Positions 23,583 to 32,632 of a stretch of 64,000 bases of DNA are shown one piece after another (the first letter of the stretch is position 1; each line of letters begins with the position of its first letter). Both the position numbers and the translations under genes were made by a program. Location of the stretch: the NCBI RefSeq assembly GCF_947258935.1, contig NZ_CAMYKH010000002.1:1-64000 (forward strand). Reading direction: 5' to 3'. Under the pieces are notes generated by a model, which was given only the letters and a program-made list of their open reading frames with translations, was not told where the DNA came from and searched no databases. This stretch comes from an uncultured Muriicola sp. GTDB taxonomy: Bacteria > Bacteroidota > Bacteroidia > Flavobacteriales > Flavobacteriaceae.

Positions 23583-25394
23583 ATGGAATTAAGCACGCTC
23601 GATTATAGTTTTATCATTGTTTTCTTTTCTATAGTTCTTGCTATAGGGGTCATCGTCTCCAAAAAATCCGGGAAAAACACATCCGAATTCTTTTTATCTG
23701 GTCGTACCATGCCCTGGTGGTTATTAGGACTTTCCATGGTTGCCACTACCTTTTCAACGGATACACCCAATTTAGTAACAGATATTGTTCGGACCAATGG
23801 GGTTTCGGGGAACTGGGTCTGGTGGGCTTTTCTTATTACCGGTCTGCTTACCGTTTTTGTTTACGCAAAGCTTTGGCGGAAGTCCAATGTGAATACAGAT
23901 CTGGAATTCTATGAACTTCGTTATGGAGGTCCTGCAGCCAAGTTCTTACGGAAGTTTCGGGCAATATATCTGGGGGTTATCTTTAATGTGATCACCATGT
24001 CTGCCGTAACCCTCGCAGCCATTAAGATCGGTGGAATTATGCTGGGATTAGAACCCTGGCAAACAGTGATAAGTGCCGGATTAATAACGGTGACCTTCAG
24101 CGCCCTCGGAGGATTTAAAGGAGTTGTATATACGGATTTTCTGTTGTTCTTTGTGGCCATGGCCGGGGCAATAGGAGCAGCCTACTACCTGGTGAACATC
24201 CCGGAAGTAGGGGGTATTCAAGCCTTGATGGCTAACGAACATGTGTCAGACAAACTATCCATCTTACCAGATTTTAGTAATAAACAAGCCCTGATCACCT
24301 TATTTGTGATTCCCCTGGCGGTGCAGTGGTGGAGTTCCTGGTACCCGGGAGCTGAACCCGGTGGTGGGGGATATATCGCCCAACGGATGCTGGCCGCTAA
24401 AAATGAAAATCACGCTATAGGCGCCACCTTCTTTTTTAACATCATGCACTATGCTTTACGCCCTTGGCCATGGATCTTAGTGGCTTTGGCTTCTTTGGTT
24501 GTATATCCCGATATTGCGAGCATACAAGAGGCATTTCCAACTATTGCCAATGACAAATTGGGACACGATCTGGCCTATTCTGCCATGTTGACCAAATTGC
24601 CCAGCGGGCTCTTGGGTCTTGTGTTGGCTTCCCTGATTGCCGCCTATATGTCTACTATTTCTACCCAGCTTAACTGGGGCTCATCTTATATAGTATATGA
24701 TTTCTATAAGCAACAGATAAACCCAGATGCCTCAGAGAAAAGACTAGTGGCCGTGGGCAGGATCTCAACGGTGGTCCTTATGGTATTTAGCGCCGCTCTG
24801 GCCCTGTTTTTACAGAATGCGCTACAACTCTTTGAAGTGCTCCTGGTATTTGGCGCAGGAACGGGATTAATTTTTATTCTGCGATGGTTTTGGTGGCGTA
24901 TTAATGCCTGGAGTGAGATCACAGCCATGTTTGCCTCCGGGATCATTTCTATTCTCTTAAAATTCACTTCAATTGGCGCCTATTTTTTTGCAACGGATAC
25001 GGGTATTTTTCCGGATTGGTCCGAGTATATTTTTGTGGTACTAATAACCACTTCTATTTGGATGGTAGCTACCTTTTTAACACAACCGGAGTCTAAAGAG
25101 GTATTGCGTTCTTTTTATATGAAAATTCAGCCGGGTGGTCCGGGTTGGTCGAAGGTGGTTAGAGACGCAGAGAAGGATAAGCAAAGGATCATCACAACCG
25201 ACGAGAAATGGAGTGTCCCCGCCGGCATCTCCGCTATGCTTTTAGGCTGTGTCCTCATCTACACCTGTATGTTCGCCACCGGGTATTGGATCTATGGCTA
25301 TACCTTAAAAGCAAGTATACTTACGGGAGTTGCAATTATTTCTGGTATGTTGCTGGCCAGGGTCTGGAATAAAATGAAAGGAACCTTATTATAA
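23583..25394 (+). CDS. Sodium:solute symporter family (SSS) transporter
   Basis: A 603-aa Na+-coupled transporter of the SSF/SLC5 family with about 14-15 helices. It starts with a TM1 (YSFIIVFFSIVLAIGVIVSKKSGKNTSEFFLSGR), where FFLSGRTMPWW is the family's early signature. Later come FSALGGFKGVVYTD, GLVLASLIAAYMSTISTQLNWGSSYIVYDFYK and a LFEVLLVFGAGTGLIFILRWFWWRINAWSEI stretch. These match sugar- or amino-sugar-type SSS members. It is followed after 6 bp by the acyltransferase gene, so the two are almost certainly one operon. Confidence 0.92.
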   Translation: MELSTLDYSFIIVFFSIVLAIGVIVSKKSGKNTSEFFLSGRTMPWWLLGLSMVATTFSTDTPNLVTDIVRTNGVSGNWVWWAFLITGLLTVFVYAKLWRKSNVNTDLEFYELRYGGPAAKFLRKFRAIYLGVIFNVITMSAVTLAAIKIGGIMLGLEPWQTVISAGLITVTFSALGGFKGVVYTDFLLFFVAMAGAIGAAYYLVNIPEVGGIQALMANEHVSDKLSILPDFSNKQALITLFVIPLAVQWWSSWYPGAEPGGGGYIAQRMLAAKNENHAIGATFFFNIMHYALRPWPWILVALASLVVYPDIASIQEAFPTIANDKLGHDLAYSAMLTKLPSGLLGLVLASLIAAYMSTISTQLNWGSSYIVYDFYKQQINPDASEKRLVAVGRISTVVLMVFSAALALFLQNALQLFEVLLVFGAGTGLIFILRWFWWRINAWSEITAMFASGIISILLKFTSIGAYFFATDTGIFPDWSEYIFVVLITTSIWMVATFLTQPESKEVLRSFYMKIQPGGPGWSKVVRDAEKDKQRIITTDEKWSVPAGISAMLLGCVLIYTCMFATGYWIYGYTLKASILTGVAIISGMLLARVWNKMKGTLL

Positions 25395-25400
25395 GAAGGT

Positions 25401-26489
25401 ATGAAAGAAAGAATTGTTTCTGTTGATATTTTTAGGGGCCTGACCATCGCCCTGATGATACTAGTGAATACTCCCGGGACCTGGGAGTTTGTATACCCAC
25501 CTCTGCGCCACGCAGATTGGCATGGATATACACCAACAGACCTGGTATTCCCATTTTTCCTTTTTATAGTGGGAACCTCTATTGTCTTTGCATACAGGAA
25601 CAAAGTAGCAAATGCCGCTACCTATAAAAAAATTAGTATTCGTACCTTGAAGCTGATAGGCCTTGGCCTTTTCCTGGGGGCATTTACAATATCGTTTCCT
25701 TTTATTAATGAATTCGATCAGATCCGCTTCCCCGGAGTCTTACAACGAATTGGAGTGGTCTTCTTCTTTGCCGCGGTGCTCTTTCTCAACTTTAACTGGA
25801 AAGCACTTATAGGGATCTGCCTTGCTATTTTGGTAGGCTACTGGGTGTGGCTTGGCTTTATTCCTTTGCTGGGTGAAGTCCCAACCTTTGACAGGGCCCC
25901 GAACAACTGGGCAAATTATTTGGATGTACAGGTTTTTGGAAGTCATAACTATAAAGAAGATTACGATCCCGAAGGCTTGTTAAGCACCTTGCCATCTATT
26001 GCCTCTTCCCTGCTGGGAATTTTTACGGGGCTTATCCTTGTTTCCAAGCGGGCAAAAAAAGAGATGGTATTGGTTGGCCTGGGAGTTATAATGCTAGTCA
26101 TAGGATATCTGTGGGACATGGCCTTCCCAATCAACAAAGCAATATGGAGCAGTAGTTTTGTGTTGGTCACTGCAGGATGGGCTAATATCTTCCTGGCTCT
26201 GATCTATTTTTTAACCGATGTAAAGGGTATACAGTTTGGCAGTATTTTCCGCTATATGGGGTCTAATGCGATCACGCTTTACTTCCTTTCCAGCTTTGTG
26301 TCCAAGCTTTTTAATTCCATAAAAGTGAACAATGATAGTTCTGTACACCAATGGTTGTTTGAGAATATTTATAGACACGACTTCCTTTCGGGCGAATTCT
26401 CATCCTTATTATATGGCCTAACGGTGGTTGGGTTTTATTTGCTCATGGCCCTTGTTATGTATAGAAAGAAGATCTTTATTAAGGTGTAG
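25401..26489 (+). CDS. HGSNAT-like (DUF5009/DUF1624) membrane acyltransferase
   Basis: A 362-aa multi-pass protein resembling the catalytic part of heparan-alpha-glucosaminide N-acetyltransferase and bacterial NagX-like proteins. It starts RIVSVDIFRGLTIALMILVNTPG, the family hallmark, then HADWHGYTPTDLVFPFFLFIVGTSI with candidate active-site His37 and His41. About ten helices follow, with the typical FPGVLQRIGVVFFF and YMGSNAITLYFLSSF segments. It is predicted to acetylate glucosamine-type sugars across the membrane. It lies 6 bp after the symporter gene, which suggests an amino-sugar uptake and modification unit. Confidence 0.88.
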   Translation: MKERIVSVDIFRGLTIALMILVNTPGTWEFVYPPLRHADWHGYTPTDLVFPFFLFIVGTSIVFAYRNKVANAATYKKISIRTLKLIGLGLFLGAFTISFPFINEFDQIRFPGVLQRIGVVFFFAAVLFLNFNWKALIGICLAILVGYWVWLGFIPLLGEVPTFDRAPNNWANYLDVQVFGSHNYKEDYDPEGLLSTLPSIASSLLGIFTGLILVSKRAKKEMVLVGLGVIMLVIGYLWDMAFPINKAIWSSSFVLVTAGWANIFLALIYFLTDVKGIQFGSIFRYMGSNAITLYFLSSFVSKLFNSIKVNNDSSVHQWLFENIYRHDFLSGEFSSLLYGLTVVGFYLLMALVMYRKKIFIKV

Positions 26490-26506: not shown

Positions 26507-27340
26507 TTATTTGCGAACAGTTTCTGATACAACCGGTGTCCCAAAGGCCCATTGTAAAAATGAAGGAAAAATCCTGGCCCAGGTGGGAAGATCGTGTTTT
26601 CCACCTTCCATCTCCACATAGGTTATCTTTTCAGGGGAGTATCCTTTTAACTGCAGTTCATTAATCAGGTCGGTAGTGTCCTCAATGGCATCTATGATCC
26701 CGCTGTGGTTCCTGTCTGCTTTTTCATCAAGGGTACCACATTGAAACCAAAAGGAAAGATGAGGTGAATAGGTTCCATTCTTTACCATGTCTAGCACAAT
26801 ACGGCTTCGGTCTTTCGGATCCTTTTTGGTGTAGGCCTTCTTACGCCACCAGAAAGAACCACTAAAAACAGCGGCTTTGGCAAAAAGATGTGGATGATTA
26901 AATACAGTGTCGAAAGCGGAAAGTCCGCCCAGGGACATACCGCAATAGACCCAGGCCTCTTTTTGATGAGCTACTTTGAATTCCTTTTTTAAGAAGGGGA
27001 TAAATTCTTCGGTAATAAATTTTGCATAGAGGTTGGCTTTTTCGCCTCTTCCCTTGTAATCCGCGGTACAGGCAGTGCCGTATTCGTGCATTCTGTTTTC
27101 ATTGGTTTCCAGGGCCACATAGATAAATGGGGTTATGCTATTGTCTGTAAAGGCAGTGCTAAGAATACCTTCTAATCCCATTTTCTTGTAATCTTGTCCG
27201 TCATTCATTAATAGAACAGGGAAGGGCATATCACTGGTTCTGTAGTTAGGCGGGGCTACCAGCCTGAAGCTTACTTTTCGCCCCAGAAAACGAGACGCAA
27301 AGCTTCCTTTTAGACTAATGAATTCAATATCAAAAACCAT
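26507..27340 (-). CDS. Esterase-family alpha/beta hydrolase (first of a divergent pair)
   Basis: A 277-aa cytoplasmic hydrolase of the esterase D type. The track starts at a TTG (27343), but the next codon is ATG (27340), which I prefer. Nucleophile Ser about 136 lies in YCGMSLGGLSAF, with the probable catalytic His in the C-terminal GGKHDLPTWARIFPSFLQW. Upstream strands read VSFRLVAPPNYRTSDMPFPVLLMNDGQDY. It faces the second esterase gene, sharing a 124-bp region, and resembles it in the S- and H-motif contexts (GxSxGG, HDxPxW). It probably belongs to the same functional unit. Confidence 0.85.
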   Translation of the reverse strand: MVFDIEFISLKGSFASRFLGRKVSFRLVAPPNYRTSDMPFPVLLMNDGQDYKKMGLEGILSTAFTDNSITPFIYVALETNENRMHEYGTACTADYKGRGEKANLYAKFITEEFIPFLKKEFKVAHQKEAWVYCGMSLGGLSAFDTVFNHPHLFAKAAVFSGSFWWRKKAYTKKDPKDRSRIVLDMVKNGTYSPHLSFWFQCGTLDEKADRNHSGIIDAIEDTTDLINELQLKGYSPEKITYVEMEGGKHDLPTWARIFPSFLQWAFGTPVVSETVRK

Positions 27341-27407
27341 CAAAATTATTTAAAAGCGCAAGTATAAGGATTCCGCTGATTTTAAGCGAGATGTATGCAA
27401 AAATAAA

Positions 27408-27415
27408 TATCTTTG
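27408..27415 (+). promoter_or_regulatory. Putative -7 promoter box of the amidoligase operon
   Basis: TATCTTTG is an exact TAnnTTTG match 49 nt ahead of the esterase ATG at 27465, giving a leader of about 40 nt. The -33 region reads TTTA instead of TTTG. Confidence 0.5.
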
Positions 27416-27464
27416 CCCGTTAAATTTTTGTTTGTAAATAAAGAAAATTAGCATACATTATAAC

Positions 27465-28175
27465 ATGGCATCTATTAAACATATTCAATACTATTCTAAC
27501 ATCTTAGGACGCAATATAAATCTCGAGATCACCGGGGACTGGGGATACCCTATTCTTATGTTTCCTTCTTCCTTCGGTAGCTTTACTCAAAACAATGATT
27601 TTGGGCTAAATGGATCCGTTATGAATTTTATAAATGAGGGGCGAATTAAATTGTATAATGTTGAGACCATAGACGGACTTTCCTTCTATGCGGAGAATAT
27701 GTCTTCTGAGGCAAAGATCCACAATTATGAGATGTATATGCAGTTTCTTAAGAACGAACTGATCCCTTTTATTCAGAATGAATGTAATACACACAGGATA
27801 GGTGTGGCAGGAGTGAGCTTCGGAGGATACCATGCCGGGAATACCGCTTTTAGGTTCCCAGATCTGGTTTCGCATTTGTTTGCACTTTCTGGTGTATTTA
27901 CTATTCGTAACTTTGTGCCACTTTCCGATGATATTCGGATCTATTACAATTGTCCAGATGAATTTATGCAAAACGAAGAAGCCTGGCGATATCAGCACAT
28001 GAACATTGTCTTAAGCACTTCAGATTGGGATAGTTGTAAGCCTAAGAACGAATATATGGCAGGGATACTTCAATCCAAAGGTATTCCCTATTGGTACGAT
28101 GAAAAAAAATGGATAGAACACGATTGGCCTTTATGGAAAATGGCATTTCCGGAATATATAGGCAAGTATTTTTAA
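27465..28175 (+). CDS. Esterase-family alpha/beta hydrolase, first gene of amidoligase operon
   Basis: A 236-aa putative esterase (PF00756-like). Ser118 lies in VAGVSFGGYHAGN and the likely catalytic His219 in WIEHDWPLWKMAF; PILMFPSSFGSF near residue 30 is the oxyanion region. There is no signal peptide. It heads a run of five genes with 19-66 bp gaps or overlaps. In that setting it may hydrolyse an ester or amide intermediate, or cleave the product. That role is inferred from context. Confidence 0.85.
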   Translation: MASIKHIQYYSNILGRNINLEITGDWGYPILMFPSSFGSFTQNNDFGLNGSVMNFINEGRIKLYNVETIDGLSFYAENMSSEAKIHNYEMYMQFLKNELIPFIQNECNTHRIGVAGVSFGGYHAGNTAFRFPDLVSHLFALSGVFTIRNFVPLSDDIRIYYNCPDEFMQNEEAWRYQHMNIVLSTSDWDSCKPKNEYMAGILQSKGIPYWYDEKKWIEHDWPLWKMAFPEYIGKYF

Positions 28176-28194
28176 ACCTAAAAAGTAAACAAAC

Positions 28195-29418
28195 ATGATA
28201 AAAAAAGTAGGAATTTTATTTGGAATGGAAGATACCTTTCCTTGGGCCTTTATTGACAAGGTAAATGAATTAGGGAACGGGCAGGTAATAGCAGAGCCTG
28301 TTTTAATTGATAAAGTACAGCAGGGAATAGATTACGGCTACCATGTGATCATAGATCGTATCTCACAAGAGGTGCCATTTTACAGATCCTATCTGAAAAA
28401 TGCGGCACTAATGGGTACTGCGGTGATCAATAACCCATTTTGGTGGAGTGCAGATGAGAAGTTCTTTAACAACTGCCTTTCGCTACAGGTGGGGGTTCCT
28501 GTGCCCAAAACCATCTTATTGCCTTCTAAAGAAAGGCCGGATGATACTACAGAAAAGTCATTTCGGAATTTAAAAGGTCCTTTAGATTGGGACTATATCT
28601 TTAACTATATCGGCTTTCCTGCCTATATGAAACCACATTCTGGTGGGGGTTGGAAAAGCGTTTATAAGGTAGAATCTCCGGAAGATCTTTTTGCAAAGCA
28701 TGAAGAGACAGGTCAGCTTGTGATGATGTTACAAGAAGAGATCGTATTCGATGATTATTACAGAGTGTACTGTCTGGGTCGGAAGTATGTGCATATCATG
28801 CCATATGAACCAAGGAACGAATTTCATCTGCGCTATGTTACAGAACCTAAGACAACAGGTGCCGAGCATCAGAAGTTGATGAAGACCATCCATGATTATA
28901 CCATTAAACTAAACGAGGCGCTGGGATATGATTTTAATACAGTAGAATTCGCGGTTAGAAATGGCATTCCATACGCTATAGATTTTTGTAATCCTGCTCC
29001 GGATGCAGATATTCACTCTGTAGGAGAAGGGAATTTTAAATGGATCGTAGAGCACGCAGCAAAATTTGCAATTGAAAAGGCGAATGCTTATTCTGAGAAG
29101 CAAAATAATAGTTCCTGGGGTACTTTCCTTAGGGAAGCGGTTGCTCCAACCAAGGCAAAAGCGCCAAAGATCTCATTGAAATCGGCTGCGCAAGTAAAGA
29201 GAACTAAGGTTAAGAAGGCCGCTGTAAAGGCAACACCTAAAAAGAAGACAACAACGAAAGCCACTGCAAAGGCAGCTCCAAAAAAAGCTGCTCCGGCCCG
29301 TAAGACCGCAGTAAAGCCAGCTCCTAAAAAAGCTGCTCCTGCTCGTAAGACCACAGCAAAGGCAGCTCCAAAAAAGGCGTCTCCGGCTCGCAAGACTACC
29401 CCTAAGAAGAAAAAGTAA
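28195..29418 (+). CDS. ATP-grasp ligase with histone H1-like Lys/Ala/Pro tail
   Basis: Residues 1-315 are an ATP-grasp fold of the RimK/glutathione-synthetase kind. AYMKPHSGGGWKSV (about 143-156) is the ATP-lysine and glycine-rich loop, LQEEIVFDDYYRVYCLG is the central strand pair, and YDFNTVEFAVRN...IDFCNPAPDA has acidic Mg/ATP residues Glu251, Asp263 and Asn266. Such enzymes join a carboxylate to an amine or thiol using ATP. Residues about 318-407 form a basic low-complexity tail with three exact 15-residue units (APKKAAPARKTAVK-like). Such tails bind nucleic acids in bacterial H1-like proteins; here it could also be a ligation target. It is the second gene of the operon. Confidence 0.85.
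   Translation: MIKKVGILFGMEDTFPWAFIDKVNELGNGQVIAEPVLIDKVQQGIDYGYHVIIDRISQEVPFYRSYLKNAALMGTAVINNPFWWSADEKFFNNCLSLQVGVPVPKTILLPSKERPDDTTEKSFRNLKGPLDWDYIFNYIGFPAYMKPHSGGGWKSVYKVESPEDLFAKHEETGQLVMMLQEEIVFDDYYRVYCLGRKYVHIMPYEPRNEFHLRYVTEPKTTGAEHQKLMKTIHDYTIKLNEALGYDFNTVEFAVRNGIPYAIDFCNPAPDADIHSVGEGNFKWIVEHAAKFAIEKANAYSEKQNNSSWGTFLREAVAPTKAKAPKISLKSAAQVKRTKVKKAAVKATPKKKTTTKATAKAAPKKAAPARKTAVKPAPKKAAPARKTTAKAAPKKASPARKTTPKKKK
29272..29406 (+). repeat. Three tandem 45-bp repeats encoding the H1-like tail
   Basis: Copies lie at 29272-29316, 29317-29361 and 29362-29406, each in frame and encoding A-P-K-K-A-x-P-A-R-K-T-x-x-K type units. They differ by several synonymous and some coding changes. The repeat explains the long antisense ORFs at 29088-29444, which are shadows. 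Confidence 0.95.
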
Positions 29419-29438
29419 GCTAACACAAAGCAAACGTT

Positions 29439-30536
29439 ATGCACAAGTTCACCCTGGGTATTGAAGAGGAGTTCCAGATCCTGGATAGTGAGAGCCTTAC
29501 ATTGGTTTCACAAATGTCTAAAATATTAGAAGACGGTAAAGTGTTCTTAAAGGAACGGATCAAGGAAGAAATGCACCTGTCCGTAGTGGAGATGGGGACC
29601 AATATTTGTGAAAATATCAATGAGGCCAGGGATGAGGTATCTTATCTCAGGCAACAAGTGATAGAATTGGCCGGGAAAGAAGGATTGAAGGTTGCTGCCG
29701 CAGGGACGCATCCTTTTTCTATCTGGAGTGAACAACCCATTACGCCTAACCCCCGCTACGATCAGCTTATTGCAGAAATGAAGGATGTAGCCAGGTCTAA
29801 CCTTATTTTTGGATTGCACGTTCACGTGGGGATCCCAAGCAGGGAAGAAGGACTGCAGATCATGAATGTGGCTCGTTATTTTCTGCCGCATTTGTATGCG
29901 CTTTCTACCAACTCCCCATTCTGGGAAGGAAGAGATACCGGGTTTAAATCATTTCGATCAAAGATCTTTGATAAATTCCCGCGTACGGGCATCCCTCCTT
30001 ATTTTGCAAGTGTTGCAGAGTATGACAAATTTGTGGATATACTTGTAAAGACAAATTGCATAGATAATGGGAAGAAGATCTGGTGGGATATTCGTTTACA
30101 TCCATTTTATCCAACTGTAGAATTCAGAGTATGCGACATGGTCATGACCGTGGATGAGGTTACCTGTATTGCTGCTTTGATGCAATGTATCATTGCTAAA
30201 TTGCACAGACTTCATCAGAAGAACCAGAGCTTTAGATCGTACAGACGCGTCCTTATCAATGAAAATAAATGGCGTGCAGCCCGTTGGGGTATAGAAGCAA
30301 AGCTGATCGATTTTGGTAAGGAAGAAGAAGTGCCCTTTAAGGTCTTGATCGCTGAACTACTCGACTTTGTAGAAGATGTAGTGGATGAATTGGGATGCCG
30401 AAATGAAGTTAATTACGTGTATCAAATGTTAGAACAAGGCTCTGGAGCAGACAGGCAACTCCAGGTGTATAATGATACCAATGACCTGAAAGAAGTTGTA
30501 AAATATATTGTGGAACAAACCTCCAAAGGGTTATAA
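29439..30536 (+). CDS. YbdK-like carboxylate-amine ligase (COG2170, GCS2 family)
   Basis: A 365-aa member of the glutamate-cysteine ligase type 2 superfamily. It has the N-terminal signature FTLGIEEEFQILD (acidic ATP/Mg-binding Glu9-11), then NLIFGLHVHVGIPSREEG with the family's HVHVG motif and WWDIRLHPFYPTVEFRVCDM near residue 205, plus a helical C-terminus. Such enzymes form gamma-glutamyl or related amide bonds; the E. coli relative YbdK has weak glutamate-cysteine ligase activity. The substrates here are unknown. The gene follows the ATP-grasp gene by 20 bp. Confidence 0.93.
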   Translation: MHKFTLGIEEEFQILDSESLTLVSQMSKILEDGKVFLKERIKEEMHLSVVEMGTNICENINEARDEVSYLRQQVIELAGKEGLKVAAAGTHPFSIWSEQPITPNPRYDQLIAEMKDVARSNLIFGLHVHVGIPSREEGLQIMNVARYFLPHLYALSTNSPFWEGRDTGFKSFRSKIFDKFPRTGIPPYFASVAEYDKFVDILVKTNCIDNGKKIWWDIRLHPFYPTVEFRVCDMVMTVDEVTCIAALMQCIIAKLHRLHQKNQSFRSYRRVLINENKWRAARWGIEAKLIDFGKEEEVPFKVLIAELLDFVEDVVDELGCRNEVNYVYQMLEQGSGADRQLQVYNDTNDLKEVVKYIVEQTSKGL

Positions 30537-30602
30537 TTGAGATAACAAGGCCCTTACCGGGGTACCATCACAATGCTTCCTAGTACGAAAAGAGAATAAT
30601 AC

Positions 30603-31439
30603 ATGTACCCTACCTATAAGATAGCCATCCTTGATATGAACGCAGGCCAGCCCAATGAAGGCATGCGCTGTATAAAAATGCTGGTGGAACAGTTTTTTGA
30701 GAATGAAGATGTAAAAGGCGATTATGAGATCTTTGATGTTCGCGTTAACTATCAACTTCCTGATCTGTTAGACTATGATATTTTTATTTCTTCCGGTGGT
30801 CCGGATTCCCCAAAACCTACCGGGGAAAAATGGGAGAATAAGTACTTTAAATTCCTAGACGAGATCTACGATCACAATCTATTGGAAGAGCGAAAAAAAT
30901 ACCTTTTCCTGATTTGTCATTCGTTCCAATTGGCGTGTTTGCACTGGAAACTGGCAAAAATTAAAAGAAGAAAGTCGACCGCTTTCGGGATCATGCCGGT
31001 ACACAAGACAAAGCGTGGAAAGAAGGAGTACCTTCTCGAAGGCTTGCAGAATCCTTTTTATGCGGTAGACTCAAGGGATTATCAGGTGGTTAAACCTAAA
31101 AAGAAGCGATTAAAAAGTTTGGGCTGTACCATTTTATGTAAGGAGAAAAAGCGCCCACATGTTCCATTGGAACGCGCTGTTATGGCTATTCGTTTTTCGA
31201 AGGAGATCTTTGGGGTACAATTTCATCCCGAAGCAGATTCGGAAGGGATGATGCGCTACTTTAAAAGAGCAGACAAGCGAGACCATATCATAAGACATCA
31301 TGGAAAAAGAAAGTACCATGATATGATGATCCATTTAGACGATGATGACAAGATCCTGAAGACAAACAGGACCATCATTCCCAGATTTTTGCAACAGGCA
31401 GCAGATGCCATTGACCATCAAACACCAATTTCTGTATGA
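30603..31439 (+). CDS. Class I glutamine amidotransferase-fold protein
   Basis: A 278-aa stand-alone GATase1 domain with an intact triad: Cys105 in FLICHSFQ, His208 and Glu210 in GVQFHPEAD. The N-terminal half reads YDIFISSGGPDSPKPTGE, the oxyanion loop of such domains. A C-terminal extension (about 225-278, KRDHIIRHHGKRKYHDMM) is basic and unusual. Free-standing members either supply ammonia from glutamine or act as gamma-glutamyl peptidases (PuuD-like). Its stop overlaps the start of the next gene (ATGA), which indicates translational coupling. Confidence 0.9.
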   Translation: MYPTYKIAILDMNAGQPNEGMRCIKMLVEQFFENEDVKGDYEIFDVRVNYQLPDLLDYDIFISSGGPDSPKPTGEKWENKYFKFLDEIYDHNLLEERKKYLFLICHSFQLACLHWKLAKIKRRKSTAFGIMPVHKTKRGKKEYLLEGLQNPFYAVDSRDYQVVKPKKKRLKSLGCTILCKEKKRPHVPLERAVMAIRFSKEIFGVQFHPEADSEGMMRYFKRADKRDHIIRHHGKRKYHDMMIHLDDDDKILKTNRTIIPRFLQQAADAIDHQTPISV

Positions 31440-32632
31440 TACCCAACATTAGGGACCAGTTTAACAAAGGATTTGAGCAGACGTATTACGAAAAACTTCA
31501 AAAAGAGGTAGCAGATACCTATGGTGAGCCCTGTGCCTTCAGGATCTCTGAATCGCCCGTTTTCTTTGATAAGGCGATGAAGAAAAAGGTGTTCGACGCC
31601 TGCGATGCCATCCTGGAGCAATTAGATGCCATCGAATATGAAACGGTAAAGCACCGTTTTATGCCCAAGCATTTGCATTCGCCATCCCATTCCGGGAACC
31701 CTCATTTTTTAGGGATCGATTTTGGCTTGTGTGAAGATGAAGCCGGTAATCTAAGCCCCCAGCTGATAGAACTTCAGGCCTTTCCTTCCCTTTTCTGCTA
31801 TCAGCCATTTTTAGCAAAAGCCTATTTAAAACATTACCCCAACCTTCCAAAAGAAGGGTTCCATTACTTTTTTGACGGACATACAGAAGATAGTTATCTG
31901 AAAATACTCAAGGAAGTAATTCTTGGGAAGGAAGATCCTGAGAATGTCATTTTAATGGAGATCTTTCCTGAGAAACAAAAGACGCGGATCGACTTTTGGG
32001 CTACAAAACACGCGCTGGGAATTGAAGTTGTTTGTATGACAAAGGTCATTAAGGAAGGGAAACAGTTATTTTACGAAAAGGACGGCCGCAAGATCAGGAT
32101 ACATCGCATTTATAATCGTGTAATTTTTGATGACCTGTACCAGTTTCAGGACCTGAAGACCAATTTTAATATTTTTGACGACCTGGAGGTTACCTGGATC
32201 ACCAATCCGGATTGGTTCTTTATGATCTCTAAGTGTATTATGCCCATGCTGTCTCATGAGAGCGTTCCGGAGTCCTATTATTTAGATGAGATCCCCGAAG
32301 ACATCGATCTTCATCAATATGTGCTAAAGCCTTTGTTCTCCTTTGCGGGGAAAGGTGTAAACCTGGAACCTACCTGGGAGATGCTCAATGAGATAAAGGA
32401 CCGCAAGAACTATATGCTTCAAAAAAAGGTAACCTATGCCTCGCTTATTAAGACCAATACAGACAAGAATTCTAAGGTAGAGTTACGGATCCTTTATGTT
32501 TGGAACGAAGAAGCCGGAAAACTAAGACCGGTCATTAACCTTACCAGGATGGGGAAAGGCGGACTTATAAATGTATCGCACCTCACCAATGATACATGGA
32601 TAGGGTCTTCAATCAGTTTTTTTGAGAATTAA
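31436..32632 (+). CDS. Circularly permuted ATP-grasp-like ligase (tentative)
   Basis: A 398-aa protein that I compare to glutathionylspermidine-synthase-like ATP-grasps on motif order. It has IDFGLCEDEAGNLSPQLIELQ early, YVLKPLFSFAGKGVNLEP (about 295-311) as a possible ATP loop, then VELRILYVWNEE and LTRMGKGGLINVSHLTNDTW at the C-terminus. Such ligases form amide bonds to polyamines or peptides. The match is by eye and could be wrong in detail, but conserved acidic, Lys and Gly-rich motifs support an ATP-dependent ligase. It is the last gene of the operon, overlapping the amidotransferase gene by 4 bp. Confidence 0.6.
   Translation: MIPNIRDQFNKGFEQTYYEKLQKEVADTYGEPCAFRISESPVFFDKAMKKKVFDACDAILEQLDAIEYETVKHRFMPKHLHSPSHSGNPHFLGIDFGLCEDEAGNLSPQLIELQAFPSLFCYQPFLAKAYLKHYPNLPKEGFHYFFDGHTEDSYLKILKEVILGKEDPENVILMEIFPEKQKTRIDFWATKHALGIEVVCMTKVIKEGKQLFYEKDGRKIRIHRIYNRVIFDDLYQFQDLKTNFNIFDDLEVTWITNPDWFFMISKCIMPMLSHESVPESYYLDEIPEDIDLHQYVLKPLFSFAGKGVNLEPTWEMLNEIKDRKNYMLQKKVTYASLIKTNTDKNSKVELRILYVWNEEAGKLRPVINLTRMGKGGLINVSHLTNDTWIGSSISFFEN

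Follow-up and report, generated by a model that had tools for sequence, protein, structure and literature searches.

A conserved locus of putative amide ligases and hydrolases

The window, i.e. the whole stretch of 64,000 nucleotides analysed here, derives from a 2.9-Mb assembly of 155 contigs and contains six intact open reading frames between positions 26507 and 32632 (Table 1). An ORF check reproduced the genes, coordinates, strands and spacings given in an initial annotation of the DNA: E2, AG1, GCS2, GAT and AG2 follow one another at distances of 19, 20, 66 and −4 bp, and E1 is divided from E2 by a divergent gap of 121 bp. The families named there were likewise recovered by profile searches for both esterases (PF00756), GCS2 (PF04107) and GAT (PF00117). 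The operon gaps leave no room for a precursor-peptide gene, and no such linked gene, the criterion for a graspetide RiPP, was found within them. The intergenic region between E1 and E2 holds the sequence TATCTTTG, which is conserved in the aligned gap of six relatives and matches TAnnTTTG, the Bacteroidota −7 promoter motif, making it a candidate promoter of the E2-AG2 operon.

Just upstream of E1, genes for a distant SSF symporter (window positions 23583-25394; 21% identical to the symporter of locus L048 described below) and an HGSNAT/DUF5009-like membrane protein (25401-26489) were observed, a position that is kept in Eudoraea/Muriicola-type loci.

Table 1 Features of the locus, with positions in the window.
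Feature	Position	Strand	Assignment	Supporting match
E1	26507..27343	-	cytosolic alpha/beta-hydrolase of the esterase family, divergent	PF00756, 4.7e-25
Divergent intergenic region	27344..27464	.	holds conserved TATCTTTG (27408-27415)	
E2	27465..28175	+	alpha/beta-hydrolase of the esterase family, encoded by the first gene of the operon	PF00756, 5.9e-9
AG1	28195..29418	+	putative ATP-grasp, RimK/D-Ala-D-Ala-ligase-like	TIGR00768, 5.4e-6
GCS2	29439..30536	+	YbdK/COG2170-type carboxylate-amine ligase (PRK13515 family)	PF04107, 4.3e-67
GAT	30603..31439	+	class-I GATase-fold protein	PF00117, 2.9e-9
AG2	31436..32632	+	permuted ATP-grasp, glutathione-synthetase/GspS/YgiC superfamily	fold search and profile match to YgiC

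Assignment of the three putative ligases

GCS2 scored above the curated cut-offs of both PF04107 (226.9 bits versus 21) and NF010039/PRK13515 (545.8 versus 371), and profile comparison with the YbdK structure 1r8g yielded a match along the full length (1.5e-47). Residues E9, E10, E11, E44, E51, H127, H129, R219, E228 and R230 are conserved among 37 sequences, and the conserved Glu, His and Arg positions align with those of YbdK.

AG1 was matched weakly by the RimK-like model listed in Table 1 and by a profile of D-Ala-D-Ala ligase (3r23; 0.0011), matches that weakly indicate a distant RimK/Ddl-like ATP-grasp; K146, E181, R190, E251, D263 and N266 are invariant in an alignment of 25 sequences. 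Assignment to the R2K clade was rejected (E 0.28, below the cut-off). From residue ~310 (window about 29125-29415) the protein continues into a Lys/Ala/Pro-rich, histone-H1-like C-terminal tail that is present only in some lineages and missing from Chryseobacterium and several others. Within family f24, in which the genes are scattered (loci L111-L114, L119 and L120), AG1 is followed by a gene for an aromatic amino acid lyase (PF00221).

For AG2, neither a Pfam nor an NCBIfam model reached its cut-off, and neither GSP_synth nor any other ATP-grasp domain of Pfam was matched at E ≤ 1. The sole sequence-profile match in the PDB was E. coli YgiC (0.0026, 73 profile positions aligned). Fold searches with a low-confidence AlphaFold model (six input sequences, pLDDT 58.7, pTM 0.59) returned 29 PDB matches at E ≤ 0.001, all 29 of which fall into the glutathione-synthetase/GspS/YgiC superfamily with TM-scores of 0.3-0.43, comprising glutathione synthetases and their relatives, GspS, trypanothione synthetase, YgiC, YjfC and Cp1B. 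In addition, D95, E112, Q114 and K298 are invariant in 31 sequences, and the resulting order, with the metal-binding D...E-x-N/Q ahead of the ATP-loop Lys, fits a circularly permuted layout. The KP(L/I)FS loop aligns between AG2 and YgiC, while in place of the Glu found in the glycine-rich loop of YgiC (KPIFSREGANV) AG2 has Ala (27/31) or Ser (4/31), which identifies it as a divergent branch. These results support the placement of AG2, as modelled, within the glutathione-synthetase/GspS/YgiC superfamily, among its circularly permuted ATP-grasps, in line with the initial annotation of the last gene as a likely permuted ATP-grasp. Structure prediction, which had been proposed there for both ATP-grasps, was thus informative for AG2 but not for AG1, whose AF2 model (pLDDT 44) was too poor for use in fold assignment.

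The nearest relatives of AG2 stem from Eudoraea, Muriicola and other Flavobacteriaceae. In genome G125, a sodium:solute symporter (PF00474) and AG2 form an in-frame fusion (L065:8137-10740); in G273, which belongs to the same genus, the reading frame of the symporter is broken and AG2 continues from its C-terminal part (L126:3273-5950), and in G133 the two genes are separate and lie 18 bp apart (L048:8790-11369). This fusion or adjacency suggests a transported compound as the substrate of the ligase. An Amidohydro_3 (YtcJ-like) gene immediately precedes AG2 in families f24 and f27 (L041-L045, L073, L074, L076, L079 and L080), and the two often overlap by 4 bp.

Putative hydrolases

Both esterases retain catalytic residues, with S137, D206 and H250 conserved among 14 homologues of E1 and S118 and H219 among 25 homologues of E2. 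The nearest curated relatives of E1 are enterochelin esterase-like (6.7e-16; 58 bits versus a cut-off of 222), and its gene diverges from E2 or AG1 in close relatives as well as in several distant loci.

GAT exceeded the PF00117 cut-off (37.3 bits versus 22.8), and the intact C105-H208-E210 triad read from the DNA at the outset proved to be invariant in 24 homologues. The canonical G-x-C-x-G nucleophile elbow is missing, and L/F-I-C-H-S-F-Q stands in its place in 23-24 of the 24. As the catalytic residues of GCS2, AG1 and AG2, the GAT triad and the esterase nucleophile and histidine are all conserved, the six enzymes are probably active, judging from the alignments.

Co-inheritance of the gene set in Bacteroidota

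Profile searches of 297 Bacteroidota genomes, with AG1 counted as strong at E < 1e-60, revealed AG2 in 92, AG1 (strong) in 108, GCS2 in 103 and GAT in 70 genomes. AG1 accompanied AG2 in 89 of the 92 AG2 genomes and was missing from three, GCS2 was found in 87 of them, and 69 of the 70 GAT genomes possessed AG1. Fisher tests of co-occurrence gave p-values down to 2e-52, which ignore phylogeny; single families (f1, f16 and f34) nevertheless include genomes with and without the set, and the genes come and go together. Co-occurrence is kept in several families in which the set is split across contigs or lies apart, whereas the clustered order E2-AG1-GCS2-GAT-AG2 recurs in several others, often with E1 divergent. 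Chryseobacterium/Kaistella-type loci additionally carry genes for a third ligase, of the ATP-grasp_4 type, and for an M17 aminopeptidase; a search for this third ATP-grasp (AG3) in the source genome returned nothing beyond a 1.3e-4 match. Across the loci compared, no neighbouring gene outside the set was conserved between families. GCS2 homologues were also detected in nine genomes without AG1 and AG2, where their identity to the query does not exceed 43%, and on plasmids, where they occur in unrelated gene contexts; plasmid-borne copies of AG1, AG2 and GAT were not found.

The recurring gene order and the genome-wide co-occurrence confirm that the gene set is real and linked far beyond chance. 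The grouping into a pathway, originally drawn from a single locus, is therefore supported by the survey of 297 genomes: the set exists in many other genomes, in the same order in several families, and the active-site residues of all three ligases are invariant in the alignments. Both conditions under which the initial annotation would have abandoned this reading were checked in this way, and neither spoke against it. Approximately one in three of the Bacteroidota genomes sampled has the pathway, which is acquired or lost as a whole and so makes something useful. Ligases that Pfam and NCBIfam models miss (AG2) or match only weakly (AG1) belong to this set.

Two displacement pairs suggest a core

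AG1 and GAT occur without AG2 in 15 genomes, in which a gene for a CP_ATPgrasp_2-type permuted ATP-grasp, d1, is located between AG1 and GAT. A d1 profile matched exactly these 15 genomes at E < 1e-200; the one further match, weaker at 1e-108, came from a genome that has AG2 but lacks GAT. Consequently, each of the 70 GAT genomes has either AG2 or d1, and none has both. Profile comparison was not significant for AG2 with d1 (probability 14%) or with AG1 (0.2%), and nothing beyond the general layout links AG2 to d1 in this comparison; AG2 and d1 thus displace each other rather than being recognisable orthologues.

A second exchange was observed at the GAT position: in loci L066, L095, L097 and L098 the gene found there encodes an M29 metallopeptidase, and these four genomes are devoid of GAT altogether. 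GAT and M29 displace each other as well. Together with the non-canonical elbow, this exchange makes GAT a probable bond-cleaving enzyme. Amide hydrolysis, for example of a gamma-glutamyl bond, appears likelier for GAT than ammonia supply, since the elbow is missing, no ammonia-using synthase is linked and a peptidase can take its place.

Both patterns suggest a core consisting of one classical ATP-grasp, AG1, and one permuted ATP-grasp, and they suggest that the GAT slot represents a bond-breaking step. GCS2 and GAT are dispensable in some lineages. Five AG2 genomes and 8 of the 15 d1 genomes lack GCS2, so the core does not depend on a gamma-glutamyl bond.

Proposed pathway and alternative readings

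Based on these findings, we propose, with a probability of about one half, that the genes encode a cytosolic, non-ribosomal amide-bond pathway leading to a small gamma-glutamyl-type peptide or peptide-amine and equipped with its own hydrolases. GCS2, a member of the gamma-glutamyl-ligase superfamily, would activate a gamma-carboxylate, probably of Glu, as acyl phosphate and join it to an amine, AG1 as a RimK/Ddl-like enzyme may add or supply another amino acid, and AG2 could attach an amino acid or polyamine as a cap to the growing carboxyl end. The Cys-His-Glu triad of GAT would hydrolyse a (gamma-glutamyl) amide of the product or an intermediate, a task that the M29 metallopeptidase might assume in some genomes, and E1 and E2 are candidates for the cleavage of (thio)ester adducts of the product. 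YgiC and YjfC act as peptide-spermidine ligases and Cp1B couples an acid with an amino acid (PMC12568646), while operonic pairs of ATP-grasp and other amide ligases often perform successive ligations (PMC4431377). As relatives of AG2 cap carboxylates and operonic ligases act successively, a small product of this type is favoured. The data themselves show the linkage and joint inheritance of the genes, their families, the preserved catalytic residues and the two displacement pairs, whereas the reaction order, the substrates and a product that is a free small molecule, not a modified protein, are inferred. Counting against the proposal are the genomes that lack GCS2, the near-universal BshC described below, the exchanged loop Glu of AG2, the weak AF2 models of AG1 and AG2 and the non-canonical GAT elbow. 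The evidence for a real pathway is solid, and that for the product proposed is weak.

A more specific version of this proposal, put forward tentatively, is an undescribed primary metabolite of Bacteroidota, either a glutathione-like gamma-glutamyl peptide or a peptide-polyamine, that would be made by AG1 together with AG2 or d1, recycled by GAT or M29, and coexist with bacillithiol. BshC was detected in 292 of the 297 genomes, the source genome included, and the product is therefore not a bacillithiol replacement; an anticorrelation between BshC and the gene set cannot be shown for a gene that is nearly universal in the phylum. Replacement of bacillithiol or glutathione was accordingly rejected as an explanation, with canonical GshB scoring below the cut-off in the source genome.

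The same enzymes could instead tag and untag a protein, with AG1 and the permuted ATP-grasp adding amino acids and GAT or M29 removing them. RimK is a protein glutamate ligase, peptidases are found in the clusters, and linked ATP-grasp ligases have been proposed as protein modifiers, according to the summary in PMC4431377 that cites Iyer et al. 2009. We nonetheless consider this reading rather doubtful, as the set is not linked to any conserved target gene or peptide, outside neighbours vary across families, and two cytosolic esterases alongside a YbdK-type ligase are better suited to a small molecule.

A PuuA/PuuD-like route for the utilisation or detoxification of amines or polyamines, in which GCS2 gamma-glutamylates the amine, the ATP-grasps extend it and GAT releases it, would account for a GATase-class hydrolase beside a gamma-glutamyl-type ligase, for the sequence proximity of AG2 to the peptide-spermidine ligase YgiC and for the joining of AG2 to a sodium:solute symporter in one lineage. 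It appears unlikely, given that no oxidase or dehydrogenase is conserved with the set, that three ligases exceed the needs of protection by glutamylation, and that the symporter fusion is confined to one genus, plus an adjacent gene in one related genome.

Siderophore- or antibiotic-like natural product biosynthesis with E1 and E2 as release esterases recalls the distant enterochelin esterase-like matches of E1 and the fact that some siderophores are made by ATP-grasp ligases (PMC4431377), but is highly improbable, as the set is not accompanied across families by any conserved receptor, exporter, acyltransferase or tailoring enzyme, and its broad occurrence and scattered loci point to primary metabolism. 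A defence function was dismissed after PADLOC returned no matches.

Comparison with known systems

Multi-ligase amidoligase neighbourhoods are already a known kind of gene cluster. They were surveyed by Iyer, Abhiman, Burroughs and Aravind in 2009 (Mol Biosyst 5:1636) and, as summarised in PMC4431377, include operons that mix unrelated amide ligases of the ATP-grasp and COOH-NH2/GS-like types, for which successive ligation was proposed. We found no description of the exact gene set in the literature searched, a coverage outside which this survey lies, and the survey may already list E2-AG1-GCS2-GAT-AG2. The figures on co-inheritance, like the displacement pairs AG2/d1 and GAT/M29, come from the present analysis.

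The overall composition resembles glutathione synthesis and turnover, with a GCS-superfamily ligase (cf. gamma-glutamylcysteine ligase), a permuted ATP-grasp of the glutathione-synthetase fold (cf. eukaryote-type glutathione synthetase), a GATase-fold hydrolase (cf. gamma-glutamyl peptidase), PF00756 esterases (cf. S-formylglutathione hydrolase) and, in some relatives of the operon, aminopeptidases. The operon differs in its additional third ligase, AG1, and in the subfamilies throughout, and the source genome has a bacillithiol synthesis gene and no canonical GshB above the cut-off. Once identified, the product will probably turn out to be a new small peptide, thiol or polyamine conjugate.

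Among individual enzymes, GCS2 corresponds to E. coli YbdK along its length, conserved residues included, but belongs to the PRK13515 subfamily; to our knowledge, YbdK is not part of such an operon. AG2 shares its predicted fold with E. coli YgiC/YjfC and GspS and is nearest to YgiC in sequence, including the aligned KP(L/I)FS loop, yet it departs from these enzymes in the short profile alignment, the missing Pfam GSP_synth match and the exchange of the loop Glu for Ala or Ser. Knowledge of the product would also assign functions to the largely obscure YbdK-type and YgiC-type enzymes.
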